From Thioalbus denitrificans (lineage in GTDB: Bacteria; Pseudomonadota; Gammaproteobacteria; DSM-26407): a DNA stretch of 64,000 nt. Location: positions 1 through 64,000 of the forward strand of contig NZ_QPJY01000016.1 in the NCBI RefSeq assembly GCF_003337735.1, written 5' to 3'. Positions 1,948 to 59,209 of this stretch are shown one piece after another. Position 1 is the first letter of the stretch; every line of letters begins with the position of its first letter. The translations under genes and the position numbers were made by a program. The notes beneath the pieces were generated by a model. That model was given only the letters and a program-made list of their open reading frames with translations, was not told where the DNA came from and ran no database searches.

Positions 1948-2691
1948 CTATTTCAGGTTGAACTCCATGCCGTAGTTGACCTGCAGCGGACAGGCCACTT
2001 CCGGAGGCGGGGGCGGCATGGGCACGGCCTTCCTGAGCGCCTCTTCGGCCGCCTTCCGCAGCAGCTTGTGCCCACCGTTCACCTGCAGGCCGTTGATGGA
2101 GCCGTCCCGGCTCAGGTTGAAAGAGATATGGACCACGCCCACCAGCCCCCGCCGGCGGGCGACGGTGGGATAGAACTTGTGCGACTCGATGTGCCCCAGC
2201 AACTGACCCAGGTAGAGATCCCGGATCTTCAGGACCTTGGCCGGGCCCGGCTTGACGATCCCCGAAGCGGGAATCTGTGTCTTCGGGCCCGTGACCGGGC
2301 CGGCGGCGACCGGTGCCGGGCGCGGCTTGGCGGCGGGGCGCGGCTTGGGTTTCGGCTTCGGCTCGGGTTTCGGCTTCGGTGGATCGGGTACCACGACCGG
2401 CTCGGGCTCCGGTTCGGGCTCGGGCTCGGGTTCCGGTTCCGGTTCGGGCTCGGGCTCGGGCTCGGGCTCGGGTTCCGGTTCGGGCACCGGCTCTGGCTCA
2501 GCCTCCGGCTCGGGGGGGACCACAACCGGTACGGGTGCATAGACCTCGAACATGGCCAGCTCGAGGGGCACCAGTTCCAGTCCCGGGGCGGAGGCGGGAA
2601 GGGCCCTCGTCACGAAAAACGCCGCTGCGATGCCCATATGCAACAGGGCGGACGCGGTCAGGCCAAGGAAATTGCAATGGCTGCACTTCAT
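1948..2691 (-). CDS. TonB-family energy transducer with long Pro-Glu spacer (system 1)
   Basis: This 247-residue TonB-family protein has one N-terminal transmembrane helix. A very regular Pro-Glu dipeptide run (about residues 60-95, encoded by near-perfect CCGGAG/CCCGAG-type repeats at about 2400-2490) then changes to Lys-Pro repeats. The C-terminal TonB domain has [19 protein letters not shown] and ends YGMEFNLK. The acidic-then-basic Pro spacer is typical of TonB and spans the periplasm. Its ATG overlaps the stop of the preceding exbD (ATGA). It is the third gene of energiser system 1, directly downstream of the uptake genes. Confidence 0.94.
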
Positions 2692-3071
2692 TGGGGGCGC
2701 TGGGTGACGATGGACAGGCGTTCGAGTTTCTGGGTCTTCAGGATGTCCACGACGGAAACAAACCCGGCAAAAGGCACGGCCTCGTCCACCCGCATGACAA
2801 TGGAGGTTTCCTTGTCGAGCCCGGACAGGCGCAACGACAGATCCTCCAGGGTCACGGCCTCATCGTTGTAGTAGGCGGCGCCATCCCGGTCGATGGAGAG
2901 GGTGATGGGAGGATCCTGGGGTGGTGCGGCCTCCTGGTTCGCCTTCGGAAGATTGATGTCGATCTTGCCCTGGGCGATGAAGGTGGCCGTGGTGAGCACG
3001 ATGGCCAGCAGCACCAGCATGATGTCGATGAACGGGATGACGTTGATTGAATCAAACCGCTTCATAGCCAT
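2688..3071 (-). CDS. exbD: ExbD biopolymer transport protein (system 1)
   Basis: This 127-residue ExbD has a short MAMKRFDS start, the transmembrane segment [21 protein letters not shown] with the conserved Asp, and a periplasmic domain containing INLPKA. The frame extends to a TTG at 3095, but the ATG at 3071 has a GGAAG ribosome-binding site upstream and gives the canonical short ExbD N-terminus. It overlaps the end of exbB by 20 bases and the start of tonB by four, so the three are translationally coupled. Confidence 0.93.
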
Positions 3072-3498
3072 GGATTTTCTTCCATTCCGCGACAAGGACC
3101 TCGACGCGACGCAACAGGCCGTTGTAGAAGAGGATGGCCGGTATGGCCACGACCAGTCCGAGGGCGGTGGCCTTCAGCGCCAGCGCCAGTCCCACCATGA
3201 TGGTCTTGACGTCGATATTTCCGCCCTGGCCGATCTCGTAGAAGGTGAGCAGGATGCCGAGCACGGTTCCGAGCAGGCCGACGTAGGGGGCGCTCGAACC
3301 GATGGAGGAGAGCTCGGTCAGATTCCGGGTGAGGGCCACGTTGAGTTCGTCGAGATGATCGAAGCCGCGTACGTCCACGCGGCGCAGGTAGAGATATCTT
3401 TCCACGGCGAACCAGACCATGAGAAAGCTCATGAATCCCAGTATGCCGATGATGCCGTAGTCGAGGTTGGACTTCAGAAGGTCCATCAGTGATTCCAT
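3052..3498 (-). CDS. exbB: ExbB proton channel, short form (system 1)
   Basis: This 148-residue protein of the compact TonB-system energiser ExbB class has three predicted helices: GIIGILGFMSFLMVWFAVERY near the N-terminus, SAPYVGLLGTVLGILLTFYEI in the middle, and ALKATALGLVVAIPAILFYNGL. The VGLLGTVLGI and ALKATALGLVVAIPA signatures place it in the MotA/TolQ/ExbB family. GGAG lies nine bases before the ATG. It begins the system-1 exbB-exbD-tonB set 46 bp downstream of the DsbD-like gene, which suggests the uptake genes and this motor are co-transcribed. Confidence 0.93.
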   Translation of the reverse strand: MESLMDLLKSNLDYGIIGILGFMSFLMVWFAVERYLYLRRVDVRGFDHLDELNVALTRNLTELSSIGSSAPYVGLLGTVLGILLTFYEIGQGGNIDVKTIMVGLALALKATALGLVVAIPAILFYNGLLRRVEVLVAEWKKIHGYEAV

Positions 3499-3544: not shown

Positions 3545-4282
3545 TCAGGGTTGTATCCACCCCAGCGCCGTGGCGGTGCCGAGCCCGGCGATCATGAGGG
3601 CCGATACCCGGGTGAGGGTGGTTTCCCACGAGGCCAGATGCTCCCGCAGCTGCGCACCGAGGTGCGCCACGCCGAGGCCGAAGATCACTGCCGGCATCGC
3701 CACGGCGCCAATTCCGAATCCGAAGCCCAGCCAGGCGCCCGAGACGGCGCTGGCGGCAGCCGCCGCCGCCAGCATGATGGTGCTCAGGGGGGCACAGGGA
3801 TTGAGCGCCATCCCCATACCCATCAGGTAGAGACCACCCGGCACCAGGCGCTTGTCCGGGCCGGGTTTGGCCCGCCGCTGCAGCCGCATCTCCACGGCGA
3901 TCGGCTGTCCGTCCGGTTTGCGGCCCGGGCCGGTGGCAGCGCAATGTCCTTTCCGCCCGGTGGCGGATGAGCGCAGCAGCAGCCCGGCGGCCACCAGCAG
4001 CGTGGCGCCTCCCAGCACCCAGCGCACCACCGGGGATTCCAGCCAGCCCTGGGCGATGCCGCCGGCCAGCCCCGCCACCAGCCCCACCCCCGCGTAGCCG
4101 GTCAGCCGGCCGAGGGAGAAGGGCAGGAGGACCCGCCAGGCCTGCCGGACCCCGCCGCCACCGGCCACGAAGACCGGTCCGAGGAAGGGCAGGCAGGCGA
4201 TGTTGCAGGGCCCGGCGCCGAAGCCGAGCCCCAGCAGCAGGGCCGCGCCGAAGCTGAGGCTGACTGCCGCGCCGTCCATCAT
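3545..4282 (-). CDS. DsbD/TauE-like membrane protein (UreH domain family)
   Basis: This is an integral membrane protein of about 245 residues with roughly six hydrophobic helices. It has two repeated cysteine signatures, FGAGPCNIACLPFLGP near the N-terminus and GMALNPCAPLSTI in the second half, which are characteristic of the DsbD/CcdA transmembrane fold and its UreH-like relatives. Family members carry reducing equivalents across the inner membrane or export small ions; which applies here is not shown. The frame is open to 4558, but the ATG at 4282 overlaps the stop of the upstream polyferredoxin gene (ATGA) and begins right at the first helix. Its place between a polyferredoxin and the TonB motor suggests a redox or metal-handling role in the uptake system. 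Confidence 0.82.
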   Translation of the reverse strand: MMDGAAVSLSFGAALLLGLGFGAGPCNIACLPFLGPVFVAGGGGVRQAWRVLLPFSLGRLTGYAGVGLVAGLAGGIAQGWLESPVVRWVLGGATLLVAAGLLLRSSATGRKGHCAATGPGRKPDGQPIAVEMRLQRRAKPGPDKRLVPGGLYLMGMGMALNPCAPLSTIMLAAAAAASAVSGAWLGFGFGIGAVAMPAVIFGLGVAHLGAQLREHLASWETTLTRVSALMIAGLGTATALGWIQP

Positions 4283-5331
4283 GCCCGCTCCGTGGCCGGC
4301 GACCGGCGGCGACTCCACCAGCCGCGCAGGGTCCAGGACTCCCAGCGCTTCTGGGCCTGCTTGCGCTGCTTGAAGTAGCGGGGGCTGGCCGAGAAGACGG
4401 GGAAGGTGGCGTACTTCAGCTGCAGGACATCCTGGTCCGGGCAGAACTCCACGCAGCGGCCGCACAGGGTGCAGTCGGCGAAGGTGATGTCGCCCTGCTT
4501 CTCCGTGGTGTGGATCTCGCGGATGTCCATGGGGCAGGCCTTGGCGCACAGGCCGCACTTGCCGCAGCGGGGCGAAGGGTTCTTCACCAGCCGCGCCAGG
4601 CCCACCTTGCGGAAGGCGGCGTGCAGGGCCAGCAGCGGGCAGATGCGGCAGAAGGGCTGGCGGGTGGTCAGGCCCAGGGCCACCATGGCGCCGAACAGGA
4701 AGTCGGCGCTCACCGAGAGCACCATCACCGTCGGGTTGGCGCTGTCGAAGTAGAGCTGGGAGGTGTCGCCCACCGCCAGGGTGGTCATGATCCGGCTGGG
4801 ACAGATGGCGCAGTAGGCGCCCACCAGGTCATGACTGGCGAAACCCAGGCCCGAGAGCAGCGGCAGGCTGAAGACCAGCACGCCGAGCATGAGCCACTTC
4901 ACCGGACGCAGCCGGTCCACGATGCCCGGCGCCAGCGACTCCCGCTGCTGCAGGCCGAGCTTCTGGCCGATGACGCCGAGCAGCTCCTGGAAGAAGCCCA
5001 GCGGGCAGATCCAGCCGCAGAAGGCCTTGTTGAGCAGGACGAACAGCAGCAGGAAGGTGCCCAGGGTGGTCACCACCGGCAGCAGGCCCATGAGCAGCGA
5101 TGTGCCGTTGCTGATCGACTCGCCCACCCGGTGGGCCATCTGGTGCTGGAAGGGAATCAGGGTGCAGTAGTCGGCCGAGCGCATGTCGTAGGCGCAGGTG
5201 AGCGCCGGGAAGGCGACGCTCAGCTTGTCGGCGGTGTAGTAGCCCACCACCACCGAGCCGTAGACGAGAAAGGCGAAGGCGGCCACCTGTACGAGCCTGC
5301 GGATGACGCTGAGATTGGTAAGCGGATTCAT
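4279..5331 (-). CDS. NapH/NosR-type membrane polyferredoxin
   Basis: This 350-residue inner-membrane iron-sulfur protein has several helices. It carries membrane-proximal cysteine motifs of the NapH/NosR/RdxA family (CGWICPLGFFQE, CAICPSR, CRICPLLAL) and then two soluble [4Fe-4S] ferredoxin motifs, CGKCGLCAKACP and CTLCGRCVEFCP, near residues 255-300. Such proteins pass electrons from the quinone pool to periplasmic or membrane partners. It is encoded between a periplasmic DUF4198 protein and a DsbD-like protein, four bases from the former and overlapping the latter, so it probably supplies electrons for a reductive step in metal or chelate uptake. That role is inference. No molybdoenzyme or nos gene is nearby. 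Confidence 0.85.
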   Translation of the reverse strand: MNPLTNLSVIRRLVQVAAFAFLVYGSVVVGYYTADKLSVAFPALTCAYDMRSADYCTLIPFQHQMAHRVGESISNGTSLLMGLLPVVTTLGTFLLLFVLLNKAFCGWICPLGFFQELLGVIGQKLGLQQRESLAPGIVDRLRPVKWLMLGVLVFSLPLLSGLGFASHDLVGAYCAICPSRIMTTLAVGDTSQLYFDSANPTVMVLSVSADFLFGAMVALGLTTRQPFCRICPLLALHAAFRKVGLARLVKNPSPRCGKCGLCAKACPMDIREIHTTEKQGDITFADCTLCGRCVEFCPDQDVLQLKYATFPVFSASPRYFKQRKQAQKRWESWTLRGWWSRRRSPATERA

Positions 5332-5334
5332 GGT

Positions 5335-6174
5335 TCAGGCGCTCCCGCGCTTCTTGTTGTCATGCCTGCGGCGGAAGCCGACCAGGCCGCCGACGAGAAA
5401 GCCGGCCCCGGCGATGGCCACGCCGGTGGGAAAGGACTGCCAGTGGGCCGGGTCGGCGTGGTAGGGAGCGGTGAGAACCGTCACGAACTCCAGCCCGTCC
5501 TCCCGGTGGCTGGCGGTGACGCTGAGCTCGGCCGGCGTGTTGTTCTCCCGTCCGGCCTCGACTTCAGGGAAGTCGTCGGGGAGGCGGAAGGTGACCCTGC
5601 CCGCGGCGTCGGTCACCGCTTCCAGCCGGCTGCCCTGGCTGGTCGCCAGCAGCACCGGCGTGCCGGCGAGCGGCTGGCCCTGGTAGCGGACCAGGAACGA
5701 CCAGCGGTCGGCGGCCATGTAGCGGTAGTGCTCCCGCGGGATGGGGTCGGGCACCACCTCCAGCTCCGTCTTCACCGCCGCGGTCAGCTCGGCCGGGCTG
5801 TGGCCGCTGGGCTTGCCGAAGCTGTATTCGTAGCGGATGAGGGTGTCTTTCTCCGGGCCCCAGTCCTGTTCCACGACCAGGGCGTGGTAGTTGTCCATGC
5901 CCGTGGGCGGCAGGGTCAGGTGCCCATGCTCGGCGCTCAGCTCCATGCGGGTCAGATCGGGCTTCCAGTAGGTGATGCGGGCGCCGTCGGCGTTGGCCAG
6001 CATCAGCATCTTCGCGCGCCGGCCGCCACCGTGCCCGGCATGGCCGCCGGCGGGCTTCTGACCCGTTTCGGCTGCCGGCGCGGCGGCGTCGCCGTGGGCA
6101 GGCGGCTGGGCGAGGGCGACGGACACGCAGCAGCCGCTGGCGAGGAGTCCGGCTAGCAGGGTTTTCATTCGCAT
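5335..6174 (-). CDS. DUF4198-type periplasmic protein with C-terminal anchor
   Basis: This protein of about 279 residues has a signal peptide (MKTLLAGLLASGCCVSVALAQ), a short His/Gly-rich stretch (GGHAGHGGGRR), then two beta-rich sections like those of DUF4198 proteins. These contain SAEHGHLTLPPTG and a C-terminal carboxypeptidase-regulatory-like part, TDAAGRVTFRLPDD. A membrane helix and a basic tail (GFRRRHDNKKRGSA) end it. DUF4198 proteins accompany nickel/cobalt transporters and TonB receptors, so it may bind a metal or metal complex in the periplasm. The ATG at 6174 is preferred over those further upstream because GGAG precedes it by six bases. It lies between receptor 1 and the polyferredoxin in one operon. 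Confidence 0.8.
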   Translation of the reverse strand: MRMKTLLAGLLASGCCVSVALAQPPAHGDAAAPAAETGQKPAGGHAGHGGGRRAKMLMLANADGARITYWKPDLTRMELSAEHGHLTLPPTGMDNYHALVVEQDWGPEKDTLIRYEYSFGKPSGHSPAELTAAVKTELEVVPDPIPREHYRYMAADRWSFLVRYQGQPLAGTPVLLATSQGSRLEAVTDAAGRVTFRLPDDFPEVEAGRENNTPAELSVTASHREDGLEFVTVLTAPYHADPAHWQSFPTGVAIAGAGFLVGGLVGFRRRHDNKKRGSA

Positions 6175-6267
6175 CGGTGTCTCCATGGGAGGAGGTTGTG
6201 CACCGGACCCTCCCTGGTCCGTGGCCAGCATCGGCCGGCCGGTGCACTCCCCTGTCCGGTCGGGCGG

Positions 6268-8415
6268 CTAGAAGGTGTACTTGTAGGTCAGCATCGCGGT
6301 GCGCGGGCTGGCCGGGTAGTAGTAGTACTTCTCCTGCCATGAGCCCATGGCGAAGTAGGTGCTCTTCTTCACCTCGGTGGCGTAGTGGTCGTCGAACAGG
6401 TTGTCGATGGTGAACACCAGCGCGTGCGGACCCTTCTCGTAGCCCAGCATCAGGTTGGTGACGAAGTCGAAGCCCTTGTAGGTATCCGAGTTGGCATTGT
6501 CCACGTAGTACTCGCTCCAGCTGTCGGCCTGCACGCGGGCCTTGAACCCGGAGGGGTGGTCGTACTCCAGGCTGAGGTTGTACTGGTGCCTGGGCGTGAA
6601 GGGGAGCTGGTTGCCGGAGCGGTCGAAGGTGAAGCCGCTGATGACCTCGGAGAACTCCTCGAACTTGTAGTCGCTGTAGGCATAGCCGAGCCCCGCCCAC
6701 CAGCGCTTGCCGAGCCGCAGGCGGCCGCTGAACTCCAGGCCCTTCTTGTCGGTCTCGCCGGCGTTCTGGAAGGTGGTGTCGCCCCCGGTGTCCAGCACCG
6801 AGACGATCTCGTCGCTCACCTTGGTCTGGTAGACGGAGAGATCGAAGGTCCAGTTGTCGGCCCGTCCCTTGATGCCCACCTCCAGGTTGCGGGCGGTCGA
6901 GGCATCGAGTGCGCTGTTTTTCTTCAGCTCGGAGTCGGCCGGGATCTGATCGGCCTGGGCCAGAGAGGCGAACAGGTTGAGGGTGTCCGACAGTCGGTAG
7001 GTGACGCCCAGGCGTGGCGAGAAGAGGTTGAAGCTCTTCTTGGTGTCGTAGACCAGGGGATCGTAGACATAGGTGCTGCTGCCGTAGTCATAGACCCAGA
7101 TCTGATCGGTGTGAATGTCGAACTCGGAGCGGTCGAAGCGGAAGCCGGCATCCACCAGCCAGCGCTCGGCCGGTTGCACGCTCTCCTGGAGGTAGAAGCC
7201 GTAGAGCGTGTTGAGGGTGTCCTCGGTCTGCATCAGGTCGCCGGGACGGTCCGAGAGGGTGGAGGTGATGCGCCCGCCGAAGCCGGTGGTGACATCAGCA
7301 TACTTGTACTTGGCGGAATCCCGGGTGTCGTCGCGGCGGAAGGTGACGCCGCCCACCAGGGTGCTGTCGCCGATGAAGTGGTGGTTCCAGTTGAGCTCGA
7401 GGTCGGTGCCGAGGACGTTGGTGCCCGGGTTGTCGTTGATGGCGCCGGTGACCGGGTGGTAGTGCTCCCAGTGGTTGAAGTACACGCGCGGCTTGAAGGT
7501 CAGGTCGCCCCAGCTCTGCTCGAAGCGGGAGTTGAAGAACCAGATCTTCGAATAGCGGCCGGAATGCTTCCAGGGATCCTGGGTGTCGTCCACCTCGCCG
7601 GTGCGCTTGTACTCGTCGAACAGGGCCTTGTCGAGGGAACCGGGCAGCTGGATGTCGGCCTTGGAGTAGCTGAGCTCCGACTCCCACAGGCCGCCGCCGT
7701 CCAGCATCAGGCCGTGCTTGAAGCTCACCTGGTTGGTGTCGAACTTGTTCCAGTGGCGCCAGTCGTTGTCCATCACGCGGCGCGAGGCGGTGACGGAGAA
7801 GGCGTTGCTGTCGTTGATGTCGGCGCCGTAGCGGACGTGATAGCTCTCCGCCCCCTCGGTGCCGAGGCCGAGCTTGACCCGGTTGGTGGCGTCGAAAACC
7901 GACTTGGAGATGATCTGCAGGGTGCCGCCGGCCGCGCCGCTGCTGTAGAGGTTGCCCGGGCCCTTGGAGATCTCGATGCGCTCGATGTCCTGGGTGTCGA
8001 TGTAGTCGAAACGGGAGAAGCTGTCCGGATCGGTCATGGGCACGCCGTCGCGGATCACCATGATCTCGCGCACGCCATAGTTCGCCTTCTGGCCCGCGCC
8101 GCGGATCACCAGGCGGACGTCGTAGCCGCCGTTCTTCGAATCGATGAGCACCCCGGGTGTCCCCTGGATGGCATCCTTCACGTTCATCATCTGCGCCTGC
8201 TCGATACGCTTCTCGTCCACCACTGCGATGGCGGCGGGCACCTCCCGGGTGGTGCGCTCTATGCGCGAGGCGGTGACGCTGATGGTGTCGAGATCGACCT
8301 TGTCGGCCGTCTCGGGCGTTTCCGCCCAGGCGGGGCTGGCGGCGGAGAGCGAGGTGGCGATGGCCACGACGAGAACCCGGCGCGCGATGGCCGGTTGATG
8401 TGAAGCGACGTTCAT
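6268..8415 (-). CDS. TonB-dependent outer-membrane receptor 1
   Basis: This outer-membrane receptor has about 715 residues, a signal peptide ending SPAWAE, a TonB-box-like region (DLDTISVTASRIE), and a plug domain at about residues 45-170 (AIQGTPGVLIDSKNGG, MVIRDGVPMTDPDSF, IERIEISKGPGNLYSSGAAGGTLQI). A 22-strand beta-barrel ends in the aromatic TAMLTYKYTF. The ATG at 8415 is chosen over 8448 because it gives a normal signal peptide. The substrate is not evident. The downstream genes (DUF4198, polyferredoxin, DsbD-like, ExbBD-TonB) suggest a metal or metallo-organic ligand. A sigma-54 promoter lies 94-121 bp upstream. Confidence 0.93.
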   Translation of the reverse strand: MNVASHQPAIARRVLVVAIATSLSAASPAWAETPETADKVDLDTISVTASRIERTTREVPAAIAVVDEKRIEQAQMMNVKDAIQGTPGVLIDSKNGGYDVRLVIRGAGQKANYGVREIMVIRDGVPMTDPDSFSRFDYIDTQDIERIEISKGPGNLYSSGAAGGTLQIISKSVFDATNRVKLGLGTEGAESYHVRYGADINDSNAFSVTASRRVMDNDWRHWNKFDTNQVSFKHGLMLDGGGLWESELSYSKADIQLPGSLDKALFDEYKRTGEVDDTQDPWKHSGRYSKIWFFNSRFEQSWGDLTFKPRVYFNHWEHYHPVTGAINDNPGTNVLGTDLELNWNHHFIGDSTLVGGVTFRRDDTRDSAKYKYADVTTGFGGRITSTLSDRPGDLMQTEDTLNTLYGFYLQESVQPAERWLVDAGFRFDRSEFDIHTDQIWVYDYGSSTYVYDPLVYDTKKSFNLFSPRLGVTYRLSDTLNLFASLAQADQIPADSELKKNSALDASTARNLEVGIKGRADNWTFDLSVYQTKVSDEIVSVLDTGGDTTFQNAGETDKKGLEFSGRLRLGKRWWAGLGYAYSDYKFEEFSEVISGFTFDRSGNQLPFTPRHQYNLSLEYDHPSGFKARVQADSWSEYYVDNANSDTYKGFDFVTNLMLGYEKGPHALVFTIDNLFDDHYATEVKKSTYFAMGSWQEKYYYYPASPRTAMLTYKYTF

Positions 8416-8519
8416 GTGTGCTGACCCCCGGATGTGTGCGCCAAGCAATTGATATTTGTCTTTTTTATGGTTCCGGTAACTCGTCCAGCAGGGGTCCGTC
8501 CCAAGCTGGTGGACCCCAA

Positions 8520-8536
8520 AGCAAGGAGTGGGCCAA
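8520..8536 (-). promoter_or_regulatory. Sigma-54 promoter of receptor 1
   Basis: On the minus strand the sequence is TTGGCCCACTCCTTGCT. It has the invariant GG and GC doublets exactly ten bases apart, and a close match to the RpoN consensus YTGGCACG-N4-TTGCW. The predicted start of transcription is near 8509. The same motif with one base changed (TTGGCCCACTACTTGCT) precedes receptor 2, which strongly supports function. Confidence 0.82.
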
Positions 8537-8543
8537 TCGGGCC

Positions 8544-8564
8544 TTGACGTTTATCAAGGGGTTA
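8544..8564 (-). promoter_or_regulatory. Conserved block upstream of the -24 element, receptor 1
   Basis: The minus-strand word TAACCCCTTGA (8554-8564) lies at -45 to -55 from the predicted start. It recurs at the identical offset upstream of receptor 2 (11290-11300). Here it is part of an FNR-like palindrome TTGATAAACGTCAA (8544-8557), but the palindrome is poorly kept in the second copy. Its role is unknown. Confidence 0.5.
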
Positions 8565-8595
8565 ATCGGGGAGACACATGCCGCTGCAGGTGATT

Positions 8596-8622
8596 TGCCG
8601 CAAATATGTGGTATTTGCCGCA
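8596..8622 (-). promoter_or_regulatory. Candidate activator-binding dyad of receptor 1
   Basis: Two TGCCGCA words 20 bp apart enclose a perfect dyad GCAAATA-N5-TATTTGC (8600-8618). The element spans -87 to -113 from the predicted sigma-54 start, which is the normal place for an enhancer-binding-protein site. A related pair of words begins at the same -87 offset upstream of receptor 2. The cognate activator is not encoded in the window. Confidence 0.6.
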
Positions 8623-8818
8623 TTCGTGCGTCCCGGGAGGAAGCCACGCGGTCTGCACCGAAGTGGCCCGGCCCTGTTGGCGGCACCCGGCCGGTACCGG
8701 CTGCCAGACGCGGGCGTCACCCGCCGGAAGGGCCGGCGATGTCCGCAGCGGACGGTGGCGGGGGCGGGGCGCGCCCTCCCTGGCGCATCCGGCGTTCCCT
8801 GCCGCCCCGCTGAAGGGG

Positions 8819-11146
8819 TCAGAACCGGGCCGACACGCCGACCGTGTAGGTGCGCCCCGGGTTCACCACGATGGAGATGTCCTCCATGTCGAAGATGCCG
8901 TCCGGTACCCCGCCGGTGCCGGGGCTGGCGCCGTCGGAGCTGCCGCGGGCCGTGTTCCAGTAGTCCGCGTCGAAGAGGTTGTCCACCCGGGCGAAGAGAC
9001 TCCAGGTCTGGTTCTCGCCGAAGCTGCGCTCGTAGGTGGCCAGCAGGTTGAACACGGCGTGGCCGTCCACCTCGTTCCAGTTCAGCTCGTCGGCGTAGTA
9101 GGACGAGCTGGCGTCGATCTCCCCGGTGAGGGTCAGGTAGGGGGCGGCGCGCCAGTTCAGTCCCACGTTCAGGTGGTGCGCCGGCGCGCGGGGAACGTCG
9201 TTGCCCTCGAGGTCGTAGGATTCCAGGCAGTACTGGTTCTCCGTGTCGTACTCGCCCGGATCGCAGACGCCGTCGGCGTTGCCGCCCGTGGCGGGATCGA
9301 AGAAGCCGTTGCGGCCGTAGCGGTTGCCCAGCAGGAGGTTGAAGTTGTCGTACTGGGTGAAGAAGGCATCCAGGAAGGAGTAGGAGATGTTGACCCAGAA
9401 CGGCTTCGCCGAATCGCTGCGCAGGACCAGTTCCAGTCCCCGGCTGCGCATGCCGCCGATGTTCTCGTAGCGCAGCGGCTCCCCGTCCGGGTCCACCACG
9501 CCATACTGGCCGGCGGAGGACATGATGTAGTCCTCGCGGTCGATCTGGAAGATGGCCGTGTCGAGGTCCCAGTTGATGCCGAAGGCGCTGAAGGTGCGGC
9601 GCAGGCCGAGCTCCAGGTTGAGCGCCTGCTCGGGGTCGAGGTCGGGGTTGTTCTCGACGTTGCCGTCGGGATTGGTGCTGCCGGCGAAGAGCTGCTCCAC
9701 GGAGGGGGCGCGGAAGCCGGTGGAGGCGTTGGCGTAGAGGTCGGTGGTGTCGTTGAGGGCGTAGTTGCCGCCCAGGCGCCAGGAGGTGACGTTGAAATCC
9801 CGGCTCAGTTCGAGATCGGTGAGGTTGTCGCTGTAGTCCAGGGCGATGTGGTCGTAGCGGCCGTTGAGGGTCACCACCAGCGGGTCGGTCACCCGGAACT
9901 TGAGCTCGCCGTAGGCGGCCTGGATGCTCTCCTCGGTCTCGCCGTCCTCGTTGACCACGCCGGCCACGGCGGCCGGCCTGCTGCTGAAGCGGGAGTACTT
10001 GTAGGTGGTGATGTTCTCGTTGAGCTGCTCGTAGGTGTTGGCGCGCAGGTCCAGTGCGGCCAGCCAGGCCAGCTTCTCGCCGGCCTGGCGCAGCTCCGCC
10101 TTGATGCCGCGCTGCACCTGGTGGTAGTCGGTGGCGGTGGCGTAGGCGTCCGGGTCGGTGATCAGCGTCCCGTCCTCGTAGTAGTAGCCGTTGATGGGCT
10201 TGCTGACGAAGGCGGTGTCGTCGCTGAACTGGTAGGCGTTCAGCAGCAGGTTGCCCGTCTCACCCATGTCGCGGGAGTAGGTGACGAAGTACTTGGAGAG
10301 GTCCACGTCGTACATGCGGGTGTAGTCGTCGTTCTCGATCCACTCGCTCTTCGGGTCCAGTTTCGCGGCGGTGATGCCGTCCACCGTGCCGTGGCTGTCC
10401 TTGGCCCGTTCCGAGCGTTCGAAGCCGAAGGTCACGTCGCTGACGTCGTCGATGTAGTACTGCAGCTTGCCGTTGAGGTAGTCGGACTGGGAGTCGGAGT
10501 CCTTGTAGTACCCGTCGGTCTGGCGCCGGGAGACCTGGACGTGTCCCGACGCCTTCTCGCCGGCGAAGCCGGCCCGCCCCAGGTACTTCCGGAAGCCGAA
10601 GCTGCCCGCCTCCACCCCGGCCGTGTAGCCGGCCTGCTTGGCGCCGCGCTTGGTGGTGATGATCACCGCGCCGGAGAGGGCGTCGTCGCCGAACAGGTAG
10701 GAGGCGCCGCCCTTGACCACCTTGATGGACTCGATGTTGTCCAGATCGATGTTGACCCGGCCGGTGCGCTCGAACACCGGCACGCCGTCGATGACCACCG
10801 CCACGCCCGGCTTCTCGCCCATGTAGCGCTGGTTCTCCACGCCGCGGATGTGGATCTTGAGCTGTTCGCCGCTGTCGAACTCCGTGGTGATGCCGGGGAT
10901 GGACTGCAGCACCTGGTGGATGTTCTCGGCATGGGCCTTGTCCACCTTCTCGCCGGAGACTACGGCGATGTTGGAGGGCTCCTCGCGCTTGGACTCGAAG
11001 CGGTCGTCGATGGTGGTGGACTCCACCGTGATCAGGCCGAGGTCCTCGGCGAGGACAGTGGCCGGGGCGGCGGCGGCGAGCGCTGCGGCGACGGCCGCGG
11101 CGAGACCCCGGCGACCGGCGGCCGGGTGGGTTGAAGCTGTGTTCAT
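8819..11146 (-). CDS. TonB-dependent outer-membrane receptor 2
   Basis: This 775-residue receptor has a signal peptide ending TVLAED, a plug domain at about residues 50-175 (VLQSIPGITTEFDSGEQLKIHIRG, VAVVIDGVPVFERTGRVNIDLDNIESIKVVKGGASYLFGDDALSGAVIITTKRG) and a beta-barrel that ends VNPGRTYTVGVSARF. Two acidic calcium-loop-like stretches appear late in the barrel (GNADGVCDPGEYD and GVPDGIFDMEDIS), probably in extracellular loops. The substrate is unknown. It has its own sigma-54 promoter, related to that of receptor 1 by duplication, so the two receptors are probably co-regulated but separately transcribed. Confidence 0.93.
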   Translation of the reverse strand: MNTASTHPAAGRRGLAAAVAAALAAAAPATVLAEDLGLITVESTTIDDRFESKREEPSNIAVVSGEKVDKAHAENIHQVLQSIPGITTEFDSGEQLKIHIRGVENQRYMGEKPGVAVVIDGVPVFERTGRVNIDLDNIESIKVVKGGASYLFGDDALSGAVIITTKRGAKQAGYTAGVEAGSFGFRKYLGRAGFAGEKASGHVQVSRRQTDGYYKDSDSQSDYLNGKLQYYIDDVSDVTFGFERSERAKDSHGTVDGITAAKLDPKSEWIENDDYTRMYDVDLSKYFVTYSRDMGETGNLLLNAYQFSDDTAFVSKPINGYYYEDGTLITDPDAYATATDYHQVQRGIKAELRQAGEKLAWLAALDLRANTYEQLNENITTYKYSRFSSRPAAVAGVVNEDGETEESIQAAYGELKFRVTDPLVVTLNGRYDHIALDYSDNLTDLELSRDFNVTSWRLGGNYALNDTTDLYANASTGFRAPSVEQLFAGSTNPDGNVENNPDLDPEQALNLELGLRRTFSAFGINWDLDTAIFQIDREDYIMSSAGQYGVVDPDGEPLRYENIGGMRSRGLELVLRSDSAKPFWVNISYSFLDAFFTQYDNFNLLLGNRYGRNGFFDPATGGNADGVCDPGEYDTENQYCLESYDLEGNDVPRAPAHHLNVGLNWRAAPYLTLTGEIDASSSYYADELNWNEVDGHAVFNLLATYERSFGENQTWSLFARVDNLFDADYWNTARGSSDGASPGTGGVPDGIFDMEDISIVVNPGRTYTVGVSARF

Positions 11147-11255
11147 GCGTGTTGACCCCCGAGTTGGTGTGCGTCAAGTAATTGATATATGTCTTTTATT
11201 TTTGGGTGTTTCGGTAATCCGCCCGGCAGGGGGGTGTTCAACCGCGAAGGCCTAC

Positions 11256-11272
11256 AGCAAGTAGTGGGCCAA
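11256..11272 (-). promoter_or_regulatory. Sigma-54 promoter of receptor 2
   Basis: The minus-strand sequence TTGGCCCACTACTTGCT has GG and GC ten bases apart. The predicted start of transcription is near 11245, giving a leader of about 99 nt. It matches the promoter of receptor 1 at 16 of 17 positions. Confidence 0.82.
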
Positions 11273-11289
11273 TGTTCGTGTGACCCTTT

Positions 11290-11359
11290 TCAAGGGGTTA
11301 CACGAAGAGAATGTTGCGGAATCGGGTGTGTTGCCGCAGGCATGGGGGCATATGCCACA
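11290..11359 (-). promoter_or_regulatory. Conserved upstream elements of receptor 2
   Basis: The block TAACCCCTTGA (11290-11300) lies at -45 to -55. The words TGCCGCA (11332-11338) and TGCCACA (11353-11359) flank a GGCAT-N8-ATGCC dyad at -87 to -114. The offsets equal those upstream of receptor 1 although the sequence between them has diverged, as expected for protein-binding sites. Confidence 0.58.
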
Positions 11360-11450
11360 GTGCGGGAATGGGAGGCATTTGTTTTCAGCTTCGATTCAGG
11401 GCGCCGCCCTAGACTGGCCTCCAGCTTGGAATAGTCCGGAGGTCCGGTGC

Positions 11451-11522
11451 ATGTCCGAATCCGAAATCAAGGTCTGGGATCCGCTGGTGCGCGCCATGAT
11501 CACCGGCCGCAAGCGGGCCTGA
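11451..11522 (+). CDS. 23-residue ORF resembling a cytochrome b561 N-terminus
   Basis: A short frame with a strong GGAGG ribosome-binding site eight bases before its ATG encodes a peptide containing SEIKVWDPLVRAMITGRKRA. The KVWDPLVR stretch is the usual opening of b561-type cytochromes (normally followed by FHW) and resembles RVRVWDLPLRLFHW of the next gene, which starts 11 bases after this stop. It could be a degraded duplicate of the b561 start or a short translated leader. I cannot tell which. Confidence 0.4.
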   Translation: MSESEIKVWDPLVRAMITGRKRA

Positions 11523-11533
11523 AGGGGGCGGTG

Positions 11534-12700
11534 ATGAACACCATCAATGTCACGGCCGCCCACGCGCCCCTGGACCGGATCCGGGTCCGGGTCTGGGACC
11601 TGCCCCTGCGGCTGTTCCACTGGCTCTTTGCCGGAGCCTTCGCGACCGCCTGGCTCAGCCGGGATGACCGCCTGCTCCATGTCCATGTCTTCGCCGGCTA
11701 CCTGCTGGCGGGGCTGGTGCTGTTCCGCCTCGCCTGGGGGCTGGTGGGCAGCCGGCACAGCCGCTTCCGCGACTTCGCCTGCGGCCCGCGCGCCGCGCTC
11801 GGCTACCTGCGCAACCTGCTGGCGGGGCGTGCGCCGCGCATGCTGGGCCACAATCCGGCGGGGAGCTGGGCCATCTTCGGCCTGCTGGCGCTGGGCCTCG
11901 GCCTGGGCCTCAGCGGACTGCTGACCCTGGGCGGCGAGGAGGGGCATGGTCCCCTGGCGGGCTGGATCGGGTTTGCCGCCGGTGAACGGGCGCACCAGGT
12001 CCACGAGTTCCTGGCCTGGACCATGCTCGCCCTGGTGGCCGCCCACCTGATCGGCGTGGCGGTGGAGAGCCTGCTGCACCGGGAGAACCTGGCGGCGGCC
12101 ATGATCCACGGCCGCAAGCGGCGGCGGGGCGATACGGCCGATGTGCCCGCCCTGCGCCCGATCGCGCTGGCCATCGCCATGGCCGTGGCCGGTGGCGCCT
12201 GGGCCAGCTTCGGCGGCTACCTGACGGCGACGCCTGAGCAGCCCTACCTGCCCTTCGCCGGGCCGGTTCTGCCCGACGATCCGGTGTGGCGGGAGGAGTG
12301 CGGGAGCTGCCACCTGGCCTACCACCCCTCCCTGCTTCCCGCCCGCTCCTGGGAGCGTCTCCTGGCGGGGCAGGAGAGCCATTTCGGCGAGGACCTGATG
12401 CTCGAGCCGGAAACCGTGGCGGTCCTGCGCGGGTTCCTGACTGCCAATGGGGCGGAAACCCTGCCCACCGAGGCGGCCTGGAAAATCCTGCGCTCGGTGC
12501 CGGCGGGCGAGGCGCCGCTGCGCATCAGTACGACGCCCTATTGGAAGGCGAAGCACGGCGGGATCGACGCGGCGGTGTTCGAGCGCGCGCCGGTGAACAG
12601 TCCGGCCAACTGCGGCGCCTGCCATGCGGATGCCGGTGCCGGAACCTTCGAGGATGCGGCCATGGGCGTTCCGGAACCCGAAGGCGGAACCACGGGCTGA
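11534..12700 (+). CDS. Cytochrome b561 - dihaem cytochrome c (DHC) fusion
   Basis: This membrane electron carrier of about 388 residues is a fusion. The N-terminal half is a four-helix b561 domain starting RVRVWDLPLRLFHWLF, with further His residues in HVHVFAGYLL and HQVHEFLAW as haem ligands. After a fifth hydrophobic segment (ALAIAMAVAGGAWASFGGYL), the C-terminal half is a periplasmic DHC domain with two CXXCH sites, ECGSCHLAY and NCGACHADA. The b domain should take electrons from quinol and hand them to the attached dihaem domain and then to SHP. The ATG at 11534 follows a GGGGGCGG ribosome-binding site; an in-frame upstream extension is not b561-like. Cytochrome b, DHC and SHP are known neighbours in bacteria that have SHP. 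Confidence 0.9.
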   Translation: MNTINVTAAHAPLDRIRVRVWDLPLRLFHWLFAGAFATAWLSRDDRLLHVHVFAGYLLAGLVLFRLAWGLVGSRHSRFRDFACGPRAALGYLRNLLAGRAPRMLGHNPAGSWAIFGLLALGLGLGLSGLLTLGGEEGHGPLAGWIGFAAGERAHQVHEFLAWTMLALVAAHLIGVAVESLLHRENLAAAMIHGRKRRRGDTADVPALRPIALAIAMAVAGGAWASFGGYLTATPEQPYLPFAGPVLPDDPVWREECGSCHLAYHPSLLPARSWERLLAGQESHFGEDLMLEPETVAVLRGFLTANGAETLPTEAAWKILRSVPAGEAPLRISTTPYWKAKHGGIDAAVFERAPVNSPANCGACHADAGAGTFEDAAMGVPEPEGGTTG

Positions 12701-12750
12701 ATGCTGAACTGGAAACGACACCATCCTGATTGACGCGAGAGGAGCTGAAC

Positions 12751-13152
12751 ATGAACAAGGCAATGCTGATGCTGGCCGCGACCGCGGCACTGTGGGGAGC
12801 GGTGGCCCAGGCCGACACGGTGGCCGACCAGCTGGACCGCTATTACGCCGAGGGCGGCAAGGTGTTCAGCGCCGCCGCCGGCGAGGCGATGTGGGCCCGG
12901 GAGTTCCCCGATCCCGACGGCGGTCCTGCGCGCAGCTGTTCCACCTGCCACACCACGGACCTGAAGCAGTCCGGCACCCATGCCCGCACGGGCAAGGCCA
13001 TCGAGCCGATGGCGCCGTCGGTCAACCCGGAGCGGCTCACCGATGCGAAGAAGATCGAGAAGTGGTTCCTGCGCAACTGCAAGTGGACCCTGGGCCGGGA
13101 ATGCACGCCGCAGGAGAAGGGTGATTTCCTCGTCTACATCAAGCTGCAGTAA
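12751..13152 (+). CDS. shp: SHP-type oxygen-binding cytochrome c (DUF1924)
   Basis: This 133-residue periplasmic monohaem cytochrome resembles the sphaeroides haem protein. A signal peptide (ending AVAQA, residue 21) precedes a haem site CSTCH at residues 63-67. The segment FLRNCKWTLGREC holds Asn109, which is Asn88 of the predicted mature protein and matches the Asn ligand that swings away in SHP to let oxygen or NO bind. The nearby Cys110 and Cys118 probably form the SHP disulfide. The ATG at 12751 has an AGAGGAG ribosome-binding site. Its position between two DHC genes agrees with DHC reducing SHP. The physiological reaction of SHP is not settled. Confidence 0.92.
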   Translation: MNKAMLMLAATAALWGAVAQADTVADQLDRYYAEGGKVFSAAAGEAMWAREFPDPDGGPARSCSTCHTTDLKQSGTHARTGKAIEPMAPSVNPERLTDAKKIEKWFLRNCKWTLGRECTPQEKGDFLVYIKLQ

Positions 13153-13192
13153 TCCGGCAGCGCAACTTTCAGCCTTGGACAAGGGGTAGGAC

Positions 13193-13849
13193 ATGAAGAG
13201 AAACAGAGGTGGAATCCGGATGCTGCTGCCGATCGTGCTGGTGCTCGGCACCACGGCCGCGGCGGTCATGGCCTCGGACGATGAGCGGGGCGAATACGGA
13301 GAGCGGGGCGAGCGCGGGGAGACCTGGGTCTACGGCGGCCACGGGGCCGACGCCGTCCTGCCCTCCGGGGCCTTCATGGGGGAGCCGGTCGGTTCCAGCC
13401 GCCGCGGCGTGGCGCCGGTGGCCAACGAGCTCTACCAGGAGGATTGCGGCGGCTGTCATTTCGCCTACCAGCCCGGGCTGCTTCCCGCCCGCTCCTGGGA
13501 TAGGATGCTGGGAGGGCTCGCCGATCACTTCGGCGAGAATGCCGAGCTGCCCGGGGACGAGGTGAAGGTCCTGCGCGACTACCTGATGGCCAATGCCGCC
13601 GATGCCAGCGACTACCGGCGCTCGCGCAAGATTGCCGGTTCCATCATGCCGGAGGAGGCGCCCCTGCGGATTTCCGCGACCCCCTATTTCGTCCGCAAGC
13701 ACGACGAGCTGCCCCGGCGCGTGGTGCAGGACAATCCGGATGTGCGCTCCTTCAGCAACTGCAGTGCCTGCCATACCCGTGCCGAGGCCGGTTCATACCG
13801 CGAAGGCGAGATCCGGATCCCGGGCTATGGGCGCTGGGACGACGATTGA
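13193..13849 (+). CDS. dhc: Dihaem cytochrome c (DHC)
   Basis: This 218-residue secreted cytochrome has a signal peptide (LLPIVLVLGTTAAAVMAS), a charged DDERGEYGERGERGE stretch and two CXXCH sites (DCGGCHFAYQPGLLPARSW and NCSACHTRAEAGSY), the DHC pattern. It is clearly paralogous to the C-terminal half of the b561 fusion upstream (both have LLPARSW, HFGE and EEAPLRIS-type segments). The operon therefore encodes one membrane-tethered and one soluble DHC. In characterised systems DHC is the electron donor of SHP. Confidence 0.92.
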   Translation: MKRNRGGIRMLLPIVLVLGTTAAAVMASDDERGEYGERGERGETWVYGGHGADAVLPSGAFMGEPVGSSRRGVAPVANELYQEDCGGCHFAYQPGLLPARSWDRMLGGLADHFGENAELPGDEVKVLRDYLMANAADASDYRRSRKIAGSIMPEEAPLRISATPYFVRKHDELPRRVVQDNPDVRSFSNCSACHTRAEAGSYREGEIRIPGYGRWDDD

Positions 13850-13855
13850 TCCATC

Positions 13856-14188
13856 ATGAAGCGCCTGTTCATACAGATCCTGATCGTCGCCATCCTGGGC
13901 GGTGGCGCGACCGGCGCCATTGCCCGGGGCGACGACGAGCGCCGCGACGGTGACATCGGCCACCGCGAAGCCCGGGCGCTGGTGCGCGAGGGGGTGATAC
14001 TGCCCCTTGCCCAACTCATGGAGCGCATCCGCGAAGCCCGGGAAGGCCGGGTGATCGAGGTGGAGCTGGAGCGCAAGCATGGGCGATACATCTATGAAGT
14101 GGAGCTGCTCGACGAGCGCGGCCAGGTCTGGGAAATGAAGATCGACGCCGCCAGCGGCGAGATGATGAAGCTGGAACAGGAGGACTGA
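13856..14188 (+). CDS. PepSY-domain periplasmic protein
   Basis: This 110-residue exported protein has a signal peptide ([21 protein letters not shown]) and one PepSY domain. The pattern is [23 protein letters not shown], then [39 protein letters not shown]. Short PepSY proteins are commonly encoded next to OmpR-family two-component pairs, where they may modulate the sensor. Here the gene lies six bases after dhc and four before the response regulator, so it probably links the haem operon to its signalling pair. Confidence 0.88.
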
Positions 14189-14192
14189 ATCG

Positions 14193-14861
14193 GTGCGCCT
14201 GCTGCTGGTCGAGGATGATGCGGCCCTGTCGCGACGGCTGAAATCCGATCTCACCGCCGCGGGTTACGCCGTGGATGTGGCGGACAACGGCATCGACGGC
14301 GAGTTCATGGGCGACGAGGAGCCCTACGACGGGATCATTCTCGATCTCGGCCTGCCGGGGCGACCGGGGCTGGAGGTGCTGCGCAACTGGCGCAGCCGCG
14401 GCAATGCCGTGCCCGTGGTGGTGCTCACCGCCCGCGACGCCTGGCACGAGCGGGTCGACGGCCTGAAGGCGGGCGCCGATGACTACCTGGGCAAGCCCTT
14501 CCACGTGGAGGAGTTGCTGGCGCGGCTGGCGGCGGTGCTGCGCCGCCGCCACGGCCGGGCCGACGAGCAGATCAGCTGCGCGGGGCTGGTGCTGGACGAG
14601 GACCGGCAGACGGTCACCACCGCCGCGGGCGAGAGCTTCGACCTCACCGGCACCGAGTTCCGCCTGCTGCGCTACTTCATGCTGCACCCCGGGCAGGTGC
14701 TGTCCAAGACCCGCCTCACCGAACACGTCTACGAGGGCGATGCGGATCGCGACAGCAACGTCATCGAGGTCTACGTGAACCGGCTGCGGCAGAAGTTCGG
14801 CAAGGCGCTCATCGAGACCCGCCGCGGCCAGGGCTACATATTCGGGGACAACGGCCGGTGA
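14193..14861 (+). CDS. OmpR/PhoP-family response regulator
   Basis: This 222-residue regulator begins with GTG directly after an AGGAGG ribosome-binding site inside the end of the PepSY gene. The receiver domain has the acidic pair (VEDD), phospho-acceptor Asp51 (IILDLGLPG), the Thr of VVLTARD and the Lys of LGKPF. The winged-helix domain (about residues 125-220) has [13 protein letters not shown] and the recognition region [14 protein letters not shown]. It should be phosphorylated by the kinase that overlaps it, and may control the shp/dhc operon itself. Confidence 0.95.
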
Positions 14862-16189
14862 ATTCCCTCGAGCGGCGGCTCCAGGCCGGGCTGGCGGTCA
14901 GCCTGGTGCTGCTCATGGGACTGCTCTGGTGGCTGGTGAACATGGCCATCGGCCGGCTTACCGAGGACTACGTGGCCTCCCGGCTCAGCCATGACGGGGA
15001 GACCCTGCTCGCCGCCGTCGCCTTCGGATCCGACGGCGCCCCGGTCCTCGACGCGGGACGCCTCAACGTGATCTACGATCAGCCCTTCTCCGGCCACTAT
15101 TACCTGATCCTGCCGGAGGCGGGCGAGGCGCTGCACTCGCCCTCCAGCTGGGATACGCCGCTGGAGGTGGCGGCCCTCGAGCCCGGGCGGCAGCGGGTCT
15201 GGCAGCTGGACGGCCCCGTCGACCAGCGCCTGCTGGCCTGGGCCGGGGGCTTCCGCAAGCAGGGACATACCCTCACCATCGCCGTGGCCGAGGACCTCTC
15301 TCCGCTGACCGACAGCCTGCGCCGCTTCAACGGCTATTTCGCCGCCCTGGTGGGGCTGGTGCTGCTGGTGACGCTCGGGGTGCAGCAGGTGGTCGTGCGC
15401 AGATCCTTCCGTCCCCTGCGCCGGGTGCGCGAGGAGATAAGGCGCCTGGAGGAGGGGGAGATCGGCCAGCTGCCGGAGAATGTGCCCGCCGAGGTGCGGC
15501 CCCTGGTGGCGGAGGTCAACAGCCTGCTCGACCTGGTCTCCCAGCGCCTGCAGCGCTCCCGCAATGCCCTGGGCAACCTGGCCCACGCCCTCAAGGGGCC
15601 GTTGCACCTGGTCACCCAGATTACCCGCGGCGAGGCGCTGGCGGACAAGCCGGAGGTGGCCGCCGAGCTGGAGCAGCACACCGACCGCATCCGTCAGCTG
15701 ATGGAGCGGGAGCTGCGGCGGGCGCGGCTGGCGGGCAGCGGCGCGCCGGGGCGGCGGTTCCGGCCGATGGACGACCTCGAGGGGCTGGTGACCGTGCTGG
15801 AGCGCATTCACGACGAACACCGGGTCCATATCGTCCTGCAGTTCGATGGCCCCGACCGGGCGGTGCAGGGCGACCGCGACGACCTGCTGGAGCTGTTCGG
15901 CAACCTGCTGGACAACGCCTGCAAGTGGTCCGCCGGGCGGGTGCGCTGCCGGGTGGATTCCGGCGCCGGGCTGGCCGTGGACGTGGAGGACGACGGTCCG
16001 GGCTGCGACGGGGAGCAGCTCGACCAGCTCACCGGCCGCGGTGTGCGCATCGACGAGTCGGTGGCCGGACACGGCCTTGGACTGTCCATCGTCAAGGACA
16101 TCGTCCAGCTCTACGGCGGCAGCCTCCGCTTCGATCGCTCCCCCGAACTGGGCGGCCTGCGGGTGCGCGTCCGCCTGCCGGGAATCTGA
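14858..16189 (+). CDS. PhoQ-like sensor histidine kinase
   Basis: This 443-residue inner-membrane kinase starts with GTG overlapping the regulator stop (GTGA). Two transmembrane helices (about residues 10-32 and 160-185) bracket a periplasmic sensor of about 130 residues. HAMP and dimerisation helices follow, with His243 in [14 protein letters not shown], then an ATPase domain with [11 protein letters not shown]-type N-box, DDGPGC and [13 protein letters not shown]. The HALKGPL box is of the PhoQ subgroup. The signal is unknown; the context suggests haem, redox or NO status. Confidence 0.95.
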
Positions 16190-16291
16190 GTCGCGGATTC
16201 GGCAGCGGAGTCTCGGAAACGGACGGTGAGAAGGGTGAAGGGATAAAGGTGAAGGAGTTGCGCGGGCCCCGGATTTCCGGGGACACTCCTT

Positions 16292-16347
16292 ACTGAAAAC
16301 TGAAAACTGAAAACTGAAAACTGAAAACTGAAAACTGAAAACTGAAA
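16292..16347. repeat. Heptamer tandem repeat (ACTGAAA)8
   Basis: Eight perfect copies of ACTGAAA occupy the 299-bp gap between the kinase and the convergent multihaem cytochrome gene. A looser repeat of CCTTATCCATT-like words follows (about 16370-16412). No coding role is seen. Confidence 0.97.
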
Positions 16348-16424
16348 CGCCCGTTCTGACTCCAGCCACCCTTATCCATTATCCCTTATCCATTCACCCT
16401 TATTTCCTTATCCCGGCGCCCAAA

Positions 16425-16459
16425 GAAAAACCCGCACAGGCAAGGTGTGCCTGTGCGGG
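16425..16459 (-). terminator. Rho-independent terminator of the multihaem cytochrome gene
   Basis: A perfect 12-bp stem (arms CCCGCACAGGCA and TGCCTGTGCGGG, 16431-16442 and 16448-16459) with a five-base loop is followed, on the minus strand, by TTTTTC. There is no T-tract on the plus strand, so it terminates only the leftward gene. Confidence 0.9.
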
Positions 16460-16488
16460 TCGGAGGCCCCAAATGGGGGAGGGAGGGG

Positions 16489-18945: not shown

Positions 18946-19290
18946 GACGGTCACCCCCATCGTGGTGGACCCGGACGCGTTCCGGGTGTCGTTCCCTGGC
19001 GGTCGGTTGGACCTGGTATCCGGTCCAGACCGGGTCTCTGTTCAGCCCCATTTATAAAACATGAATAAATTCATGCGCTTTTATGTTTTTCTATTGTCTG
19101 TCGCAGTATCTGAACAAGGGCCCGCCGTCCCTGGAAGGCCCTTGTTCTGATCCCACAACGGTTGGTTTCCGGGTTTTCCTCCATGAAAATTGTGACAAAT
19201 GTCGCCATTCCGGGATCCAACCCCGTCGCCCGGTTCCGGCCGGGCGGCCCTGAAAGTGCCTCCCGGAGTGAAGTAGTACACTATTGGACT
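18946..19290. other. Divergent intergenic region with two dyads
   Basis: This 345-bp gap between the nine-haem cytochrome (minus) and the ABC importer (plus) contains an AT-rich dyad CATGAAT-AA-ATTCATG (19060-19075), next to a TATAAA-like box reading leftward (about 19051-19058). It also contains a perfect 11-bp stem GAACAAGGGCC / GGCCCTTGTTC (19112-19122 and 19137-19147). The first may be an operator over the cytochrome promoter. The stem has no T-tract and no evident role. Confidence 0.6.
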
Positions 19291-58369: not shown

Positions 58370-58386
58370 CTGGCACGCGCCTTGCT
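58370..58386 (+). promoter_or_regulatory. Sigma-54 promoter of unit 2
   Basis: CTGGCACGCGCCTTGCT is a perfect match to YTGGCACG-N4-TTGCW. Predicted transcription starts near 58397, giving an 87-nt leader before the first DUF1989 gene. Confidence 0.92.
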
Positions 58387-58483: not shown

Positions 58484-59209
58484 ATGCGTGAATCTTCGCC
58501 GAGCAGCCCGCTGTGGGAGGAACTGGTGCCGGGCGGGGCCCACTGGTCCGGGGTGCTCCGCCGCGGCACCACCCTGCGCCTGACCGACGTGGGTGGCGGG
58601 GCCAATGTCGCCATGCTGCTCTACAACAACGAGGAGAAGCTCGAGCGCTACAACATGGCCGACACCCTCAAGGCGCAGCACACCGCCCACCTCACCGCCG
58701 GCTGCGCCTGCTACTCCGACATGGGCCGCGTGCTCTGCTCCATCACCGGCGACAGCGTGGGCTGGCACGATCCCATCGGCGGCGTCTCCAACGCCGCCAT
58801 GGTGGCGCGCAGGTACGGCGCGCTGAGCTACCAGGAGGCGCGCAACGCCTGCCACCGCAACGGCTACGACAGCCTGCTCAACGAGGTGGCCAAGTACGGA
58901 CTCGGCCGGCGCGACCTGGTGCCCAACATCAATTTCTTCAGCAAGGTGGTGGTGGACGACGGTGGCAACATGGCCTTCGCCGGCGGCCACTCGCGGGCGG
59001 GCGACCACGTGGATCTCCGCTTCGAGATGGAAACCCTGGTGGTGCTCTCCACCTGCCAGCATCCCCTCGATCCGGATCCGGAGTACCGGCCCCGCGACGT
59101 GAAGCTCACCGCTTGGTACAGCGGTCCCGCCGGCGCCGACGATCCCTGCCGCAACCGCTGCCCCGAGAACCGGCGCGGCTTCGCCAACACCGATCGGCTC
59201 TACCTCTGA
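58484..59209 (+). CDS. DUF1989 protein (urea carboxylase-associated protein 2 type)
   Basis: This 241-residue DUF1989 protein is one of the paired urea-carboxylase-associated proteins, shown in the guanidine pathway to act as subunits of carboxyguanidine deiminase (CgdAB). Blocks are [55 protein letters not shown] and [29 protein letters not shown] precedes the ATG. It is the first gene of unit 2 and is paired with the next gene. Confidence 0.92.

Follow-up and report, generated by a model that had tools for sequence, protein, structure and literature searches.

Two neighboring TonB-dependent receptor genes of Thioalbus denitrificans carry similar sequence blocks at the same distances upstream, which raises the question of what kind of promoter these blocks form, which protein acts on them and which nutrient they serve. 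We analyzed a 64-kb stretch (referred to as the window) of a 68-kb contig, together with the 4.14-Mb genome and related genomes.

The receptor genes and their surroundings

The two receptor genes are tandem neighbors transcribed leftwards. TBDT1 (positions 6268–8415, minus strand) encodes a 715-aa plug-and-barrel receptor, whose nearest solved chains are PqqU/YncD, and TBDT2 (8819–11146, minus strand) encodes a 775-aa receptor, assigned by family and structure-chain comparison. TBDT2 and the TBDT1 orthologues are about 25–30% identical in the matched part. TBDT1 is followed on the same strand by genes for a DUF4198-like periplasmic protein (5335–6231; E 5e-4, below the cut-off, and found in 62 of 81 loci), a NapH/NosR-like membrane 4Fe-4S protein (4279–5331; family match and conserved neighborhood) and a DsbD_2 (TauE/CcdA-like) membrane protein (3545–4558, the true start probably lying inside the ORF), and then, by family matches, for ExbB (3052–3498), ExbD (2688–3095) and TonB (1948–2691). 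The module of receptor, DUF4198, NapH-like Fe-S protein and DsbD_2, often with ExbB/ExbD/TonB, is conserved in relatives. Beside TBDT2 lies a divergent cluster (11447–18960) encoding dihaem cytochromes, a cytochrome b561, a DUF1924 protein, an OmpR-type two-component pair and a multihaem cytochrome.

Architecture of the two promoters

The first-pass annotation of this DNA had described paralogous sigma-54 promoters matching at 16 of 17 bases, and this observation as a whole was confirmed to the base. The −24/−12 elements, located by a pattern search of the genome and by position, are TTGGCCCACTCCTTGCT for TBDT1 (8520–8536, minus strand) and TTGGCCCACTACTTGCT for TBDT2 (11256–11272, minus strand), which are equal at 16 of 17 positions. 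With up to two mismatches allowed, these two were the only matches to the −24/−12 pattern in the 4.14-Mb genome, as compared with 12 matches to the reversed control pattern. The TBDT1 and TBDT2 cores, TGGCCCACTCCTTGCT and TGGCCCACTACTTGCT, match TGGCMCRNNNNTTGCW perfectly, having the GG-N10-GC signature and being close to TGGCACG-N4-TTGCW, and the genome encodes rpoN (Sigma54_AID match, E 9e-17). Elsewhere in the window, a perfect sigma-54 core, TGGCACGCGCCTTGCT (58371–58386, plus strand), lies about 100 bp before a DUF1989 gene (58484–59209) and also upstream of a urea carboxylase-like gene (60120–63746), probably representing ordinary nitrogen control.

A block at −45 to −55 had been reported in both promoters, and TAACCCCTTGA indeed spans −55 to −45 at each. 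Read on the opposite strand, this block is TATCAAGGGGTTA at TBDT1 (8552–8564, plus strand), an IHF-type site matching the consensus WATCAANNNNTTR perfectly. The corresponding IHF-like site of TBDT2, TTTCAAGGGGTTA (11288–11300, plus strand), has one mismatch to the consensus, and its counterpart in the sister species, TATCAATGGGTTA, has none; in each case the site lies between the upstream elements and the core. The transcribed leaders contain further perfect matches, TATCAATTGCTTG at about +56 of TBDT1 (8442–8454, minus strand) and TATCAATTACTTG at about +59 of TBDT2 (11175–11187, minus strand). All three perfect matches in the window are thus inside the two promoter-leader regions, against an expectation of 0.04.

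Dyads had also been noted from −87 in both promoters. We found TGCGGCA at −93 to −87 in each, and a second TG(C/T)GGCA at −113 and −114. When relatives were aligned, these dyads resolved into two 18-bp palindromes with the consensus TTGnGTGATATCACnCAA, 20–21 bp apart. At TBDT1, alignment and matrix place the proximal palindrome TTGCGGCAAATCACCTGC at 8586–8603 and the distal palindrome ATGCGGCAAATACCACAT, 20 bp upstream of it, at 8606–8623; at TBDT2, the relatives' alignment places the weak proximal palindrome CTGCGGCAACACACCCGA at 11322–11339 and the distal palindrome CTGTGGCATATGCCCCCA at 11343–11360 (all minus strand). The proximal palindrome lies 68 bp from the sigma-54 core at both promoters. 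The three blocks originally described are better read as two putative activator sites (the UAS), one IHF-type site and a core promoter.

A symmetrised palindrome matrix, from which the window's genus was left out and whose training sequences came mostly from one symbiont lineage, ranked the two promoters as the top two pairs in the 64 kb, with scores of 31.4 and 16.8, the next being 5.3. The maxima of 60 shuffled windows had a mean of 4.2 and a largest value of 17.2, so that the TBDT1 pair is clearly above the shuffled windows, and the TBDT2 pair comes near the largest of them without exceeding it; the case for TBDT2 is better made by its fixed position. In a search of the genome, an exact TGCGGCAA pair occurred at the TBDT1 promoter alone; finding others required the degenerate palindrome.

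Comparison of the two promoters showed identities of 94% in the sigma-54 core, 81% in the IHF block and 66% in the UAS region. The flanks had been described as diverged, which holds for the gaps between blocks (46–53% identical) and for the stretch directly upstream of the UAS (12%), but not for the second half of the leader, which contains both perfect leader IHF-type sites and is 79% identical. The elements, their order and their offsets at both receptor genes are genuine, and both sites very probably represent a sigma-54/IHF enhancer-type promoter.

Distribution of the promoter and the metal it may serve

The same promoter type was found in the sister species, in Thiodiazotropha, in a Thiotrichales bacterium, in Magnetococcales and in a Rhodospirillales bacterium. 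This conservation strongly supports the earlier argument from identical offsets to function under sigma-54 control. Absence of the blocks from close relatives, which would have refuted it, was not seen, the sole sister genome keeping both promoters, but the sigma-54 core has been lost in some distant relatives (see below).

Further targets were sought with a sequence-only promoter profile, R1, which was searched through 20 genomes and on which, rather than on the palindrome matrix, the scan of the own genome rests. Outside its training set, R1 recovered, at E 5e-7, the promoter of the sister species' TBDT2 orthologue and, at E-values from 1e-8 to 4e-4, promoters of further TonB receptors encoded by Thiodiazotropha genomes. 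Two of the receptors behind R1 promoters (L173 and L175) belong to the TonB-copper family TIGR01778, with 603–610 bits against a cut-off of 472, and four others (L174, L176, L178 and L186) appear similar to these, as judged from sequence reading. Neither TBDT1 nor TBDT2 has a TIGR01778 match above 472 bits among the families listed. Since TonB-copper receptors of relatives carry the same promoter, a copper-scavenging switch is indicated for the window's pair, and we consider copper the likeliest nutrient, with somewhat better than even confidence.

The annotation had suggested looking for further copies of the pattern in the genome, and a palindrome pair with a phased core, TGGTATGCATTGTGCA, at 69 bp was found upstream of a metal-gene cluster (L187). 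Besides a small ORF, this cluster has genes for NifQ, a metal-binding ATPase domain, DsbD_2 and a heavy-metal P-type ATPase, and an HMA gene diverges from it. A weaker match (L188) lies upstream of a ZnuA-like binding protein; the R1 E-values of both are weak (0.02 and 0.1, respectively). A reading in which the regulon serves another metal, such as zinc, iron, nickel or molybdenum, the relatives' copper receptors being just part of it, would draw on the ZnuA-like protein, which also follows a similar promoter in Thiodiazotropha (L177), on the NifQ-domain gene, and on the BtuB-like (two of them behind untrained R1 matches) or unassigned receptors among the further targets in relatives. We regard it as unlikely, because the best-scoring assignments are copper-specific: TonB-copper receptors, nosZ, Sco/PCuAC, a multicopper-oxidase-like protein and the heavy-metal ATPase with HMA. 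The nosZ gene and the Sco/PCuAC-type operon are those of Sedimenticola thiotaurini, where palindrome pairs precede both together with FNR-type boxes and no sigma-54 core. In another relative (L182), the genes of two proteins that resemble each other are preceded by palindrome pairs lacking a sigma-54 core, about 300 bp before positions 4467 and 7668 (plus strand); one of the two proteins has a match to multicopper-oxidase models that stays below the cut-off.

Promoter classes around the palindrome pair

Among 80 named relatives of TBDT1, 20 have a palindrome pair with a sigma-54 core 66–71 or 80–81 bp downstream of the proximal palindrome, the sigma-54 score used being one that 2% of random 24-nt windows reach; 18 of these 20 contributed to the palindrome matrix, and L097 and L101 did not. 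The two spacings, about one helical turn apart, are helically phased. The pair occurs without a sigma-54 core in 18 relatives and is absent from 42. FNR-type boxes (9–10 of 10 bases) were found in 8 of the 18 pair-without-core relatives, 0 of the 20 sigma-54-type relatives and 0 of the 42 without a pair, counts that are not phylogenetically independent across genomes. In five relatives (L077, L065, L076, L073 and L078), the receptor gene has the pair upstream with an FNR-type box in place of the sigma-54 core, an apparent swap of promoter class around a constant operator between lineages.

The 18 pair-only relatives, 8 of them with the FNR-type box, and the Sedimenticola nosZ and Sco/PCuAC operon count against an obligate sigma-54 activator as the palindrome-binding protein. 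The palindromes could instead bind a regulator unrelated to sigma-54, responding for example to metal, redox or NO, which in some lineages would co-operate at sigma-70 promoters with activators of the FNR type and which would modulate the window's sigma-54 promoters, whose activator would bind elsewhere. In line with this, the TBDT1 IHF block also contains TTGAT-AAAC-GTCAA; however, the sister TBDT2 promoter loses the FNR-like reading of the block and keeps the IHF consensus. The phased spacings, and the co-occurrence of the sigma-54 class with an NtrC-type pair described below, fit an enhancer-binding protein, and a regulator unrelated to sigma-54 is in our view distinctly unlikely. That the likeness of the blocks is a functionless residue of gene duplication, as the tandem arrangement and similar leaders might suggest, is highly improbable, given the low identity of the receptors in their matched parts and of the gaps between blocks, and the same blocks before non-tandem receptors in other genera.

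Candidate activators

The genome encodes 20 full sigma-54 activators (23 domain matches, of which 3 are weak). None of the 20 lies on the 68-kb contig, in agreement with the earlier remark that no enhancer-binding protein is encoded nearby. In relatives, the best candidate appears to be a pair formed by an NtrC-type regulator and a kinase that carries a CxxCH motif as well as a PAS domain with cysteines. This pair was present in each of the 12 genomes of Thiodiazotropha/Thiotrichales in which R1 matched strongly, as compared with 3 of 18 genomes without strong matches, counts that again lack phylogenetic independence; those three are G381 and G385, with weaker or FNR-type sites, and G390, with no site. 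It was absent from the other 15, and likewise from the own genome and the sister genome. A search with R1 of 16 further genomes, including the kinase-bearing G390, gave no strong full-length match. The pair adjoins a methionine-rich protein in one relative, and in S. thiotaurini it lies near nos/Sco genes. A 307-residue protein adjoining the pair in L234 (2923–3846, minus strand) consists of GMSGMNGM repeats and is thus methionine-rich and perhaps copper-binding; L235, L236 and L233 have similar repeats close to the pair.

In a phylogenetic tree, the pair's activators clustered with PAS activators, including two of the own genome, L014 and L018 (support 98/93). The PAS domains of L014, L018 and the relatives' kinase contain C-x10-C, the same spacing as Cys53/Cys64 of FisR; the cysteine segments of L014 and L018 are CYEISHHSHQPC and CYEVSHHYDRPC, giving both a FisR-like N-terminal domain with two cysteines. 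L014 is common to both species of the window's genus and adjoins a sulfide:quinone oxidoreductase (sqr)-like gene, which has a sigma-54-like core and no such palindrome, and this counts against L014. Against L018 counts that the sister assembly, which is 87% complete, yielded no copy of it. A search for an autoregulatory or sqr-linked palindrome for either found none. Tentatively, and with more doubt than confidence, we propose one of these FisR-like clade members as the likeliest activator in this genome, where it would take the place of the relatives' two-component pair. Orthologues of L018, as orphan PAS activators, appear by sequence reading to adjoin genes for cytochrome bd oxidase, a copper-free oxidase, in three relatives (L273, L275 and L294).

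Other candidates were set aside. L008, a MetOD1-type activator near copper-like genes, has an N-terminal domain missing from most promoter-bearing genomes; reciprocal best hits yielded only NtrC, NtrX and PspF as activators common to all four genomes compared; and the site of NifA, TGT-N10-ACA, differs from the palindrome.

Proposed mechanism and significance

The first-pass interpretation stands in part: sigma-54 control is strongly supported, the absence of a nearby activator is upheld, and the reading of the blocks and of the flanks is corrected. Computation established the elements with their spacing, showed them to be conserved and found them in front of TonB-copper receptors of relatives. 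We favor, as probable, a reading of the locus as sigma-54 enhancer promoters with IHF that belong to a copper-acquisition regulon, the activator being encoded elsewhere in the genome. A dimeric enhancer-binding protein would occupy the two palindromes that lie in tandem at −87 to −114 with a spacing of about 20 bp, IHF would bend the DNA at −45/−55, and the looped activator would open the sigma-54 RNA polymerase at −24/−12. TBDT1 would thereby be transcribed, probably together with the genes of an energy module of its own (DUF4198, NapH-like Fe-S protein, DsbD_2, ExbB, ExbD and TonB), and the same activation would transcribe TBDT2, most likely for the acquisition of copper.

A more speculative extension, which we consider unlikely, is that sulfur-redox sensing drives copper acquisition through FisR-type cysteine PAS sensors, with the operator re-plugged between sigma-54 and FNR-type promoters. 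The sensors would be fused to the activator in the window's genus and lie within the histidine kinase in symbiotic relatives; when sulfide makes copper unavailable, they would turn on copper receptors and the genes for cuproenzyme assembly from their sigma-54 promoters.

How outer-membrane copper import is switched on in Gram-negative bacteria is poorly known. A defined operator common to genes for copper receptors and metal ATPases, and to nosZ in one relative, offers a testable regulon in sulfur-oxidizing and symbiotic bacteria, whose N2O reduction requires copper. A literature search with partial coverage gave no report of copper receptors under sigma-54 control.

Comparison with known systems

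The two promoters resemble the classical sigma-54/IHF enhancer promoters of the nif/NifA type in having a −24/−12 core, an IHF-type site between, and tandem dyads about 60–90 bp upstream of the core. They differ in that the palindrome TTGnGTGATATCACnCAA is neither the NifA nor the NtrC site, and in that the targets are TonB receptors. OprC/NosA are TonB-dependent copper receptors (PMC8610252); the relatives' receptors under the same promoter type share their family, TIGR01778, whereas TBDT1 and TBDT2 themselves have no match to it among the families listed. The CrtA/BfrG locus of Bordetella likewise encodes a copper receptor, in some cases together with ExbBD-TonB and Sco/PCuAC, but CrtA loci carry PepSY_TM genes and often an upstream ORF, cruR, and the available part of that report describes no sigma-54 promoter or NapH-like/DUF4198 module (PMC12914433). 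FisR is a persulfide-responsive sigma-54 activator of sqr/pdo (PMC7315123, PMC9495516), in which Cys53 and Cys64 are reported to form a tetrasulfide link (PMC9495516). Although FisR is described for sulfide oxidation rather than for metal receptors, and palindrome binding by L014/L018 is putative, the PAS C-x10-C of L014, L018 and the relatives' kinase, and the grouping of the activators in one clade, are features in common with it.
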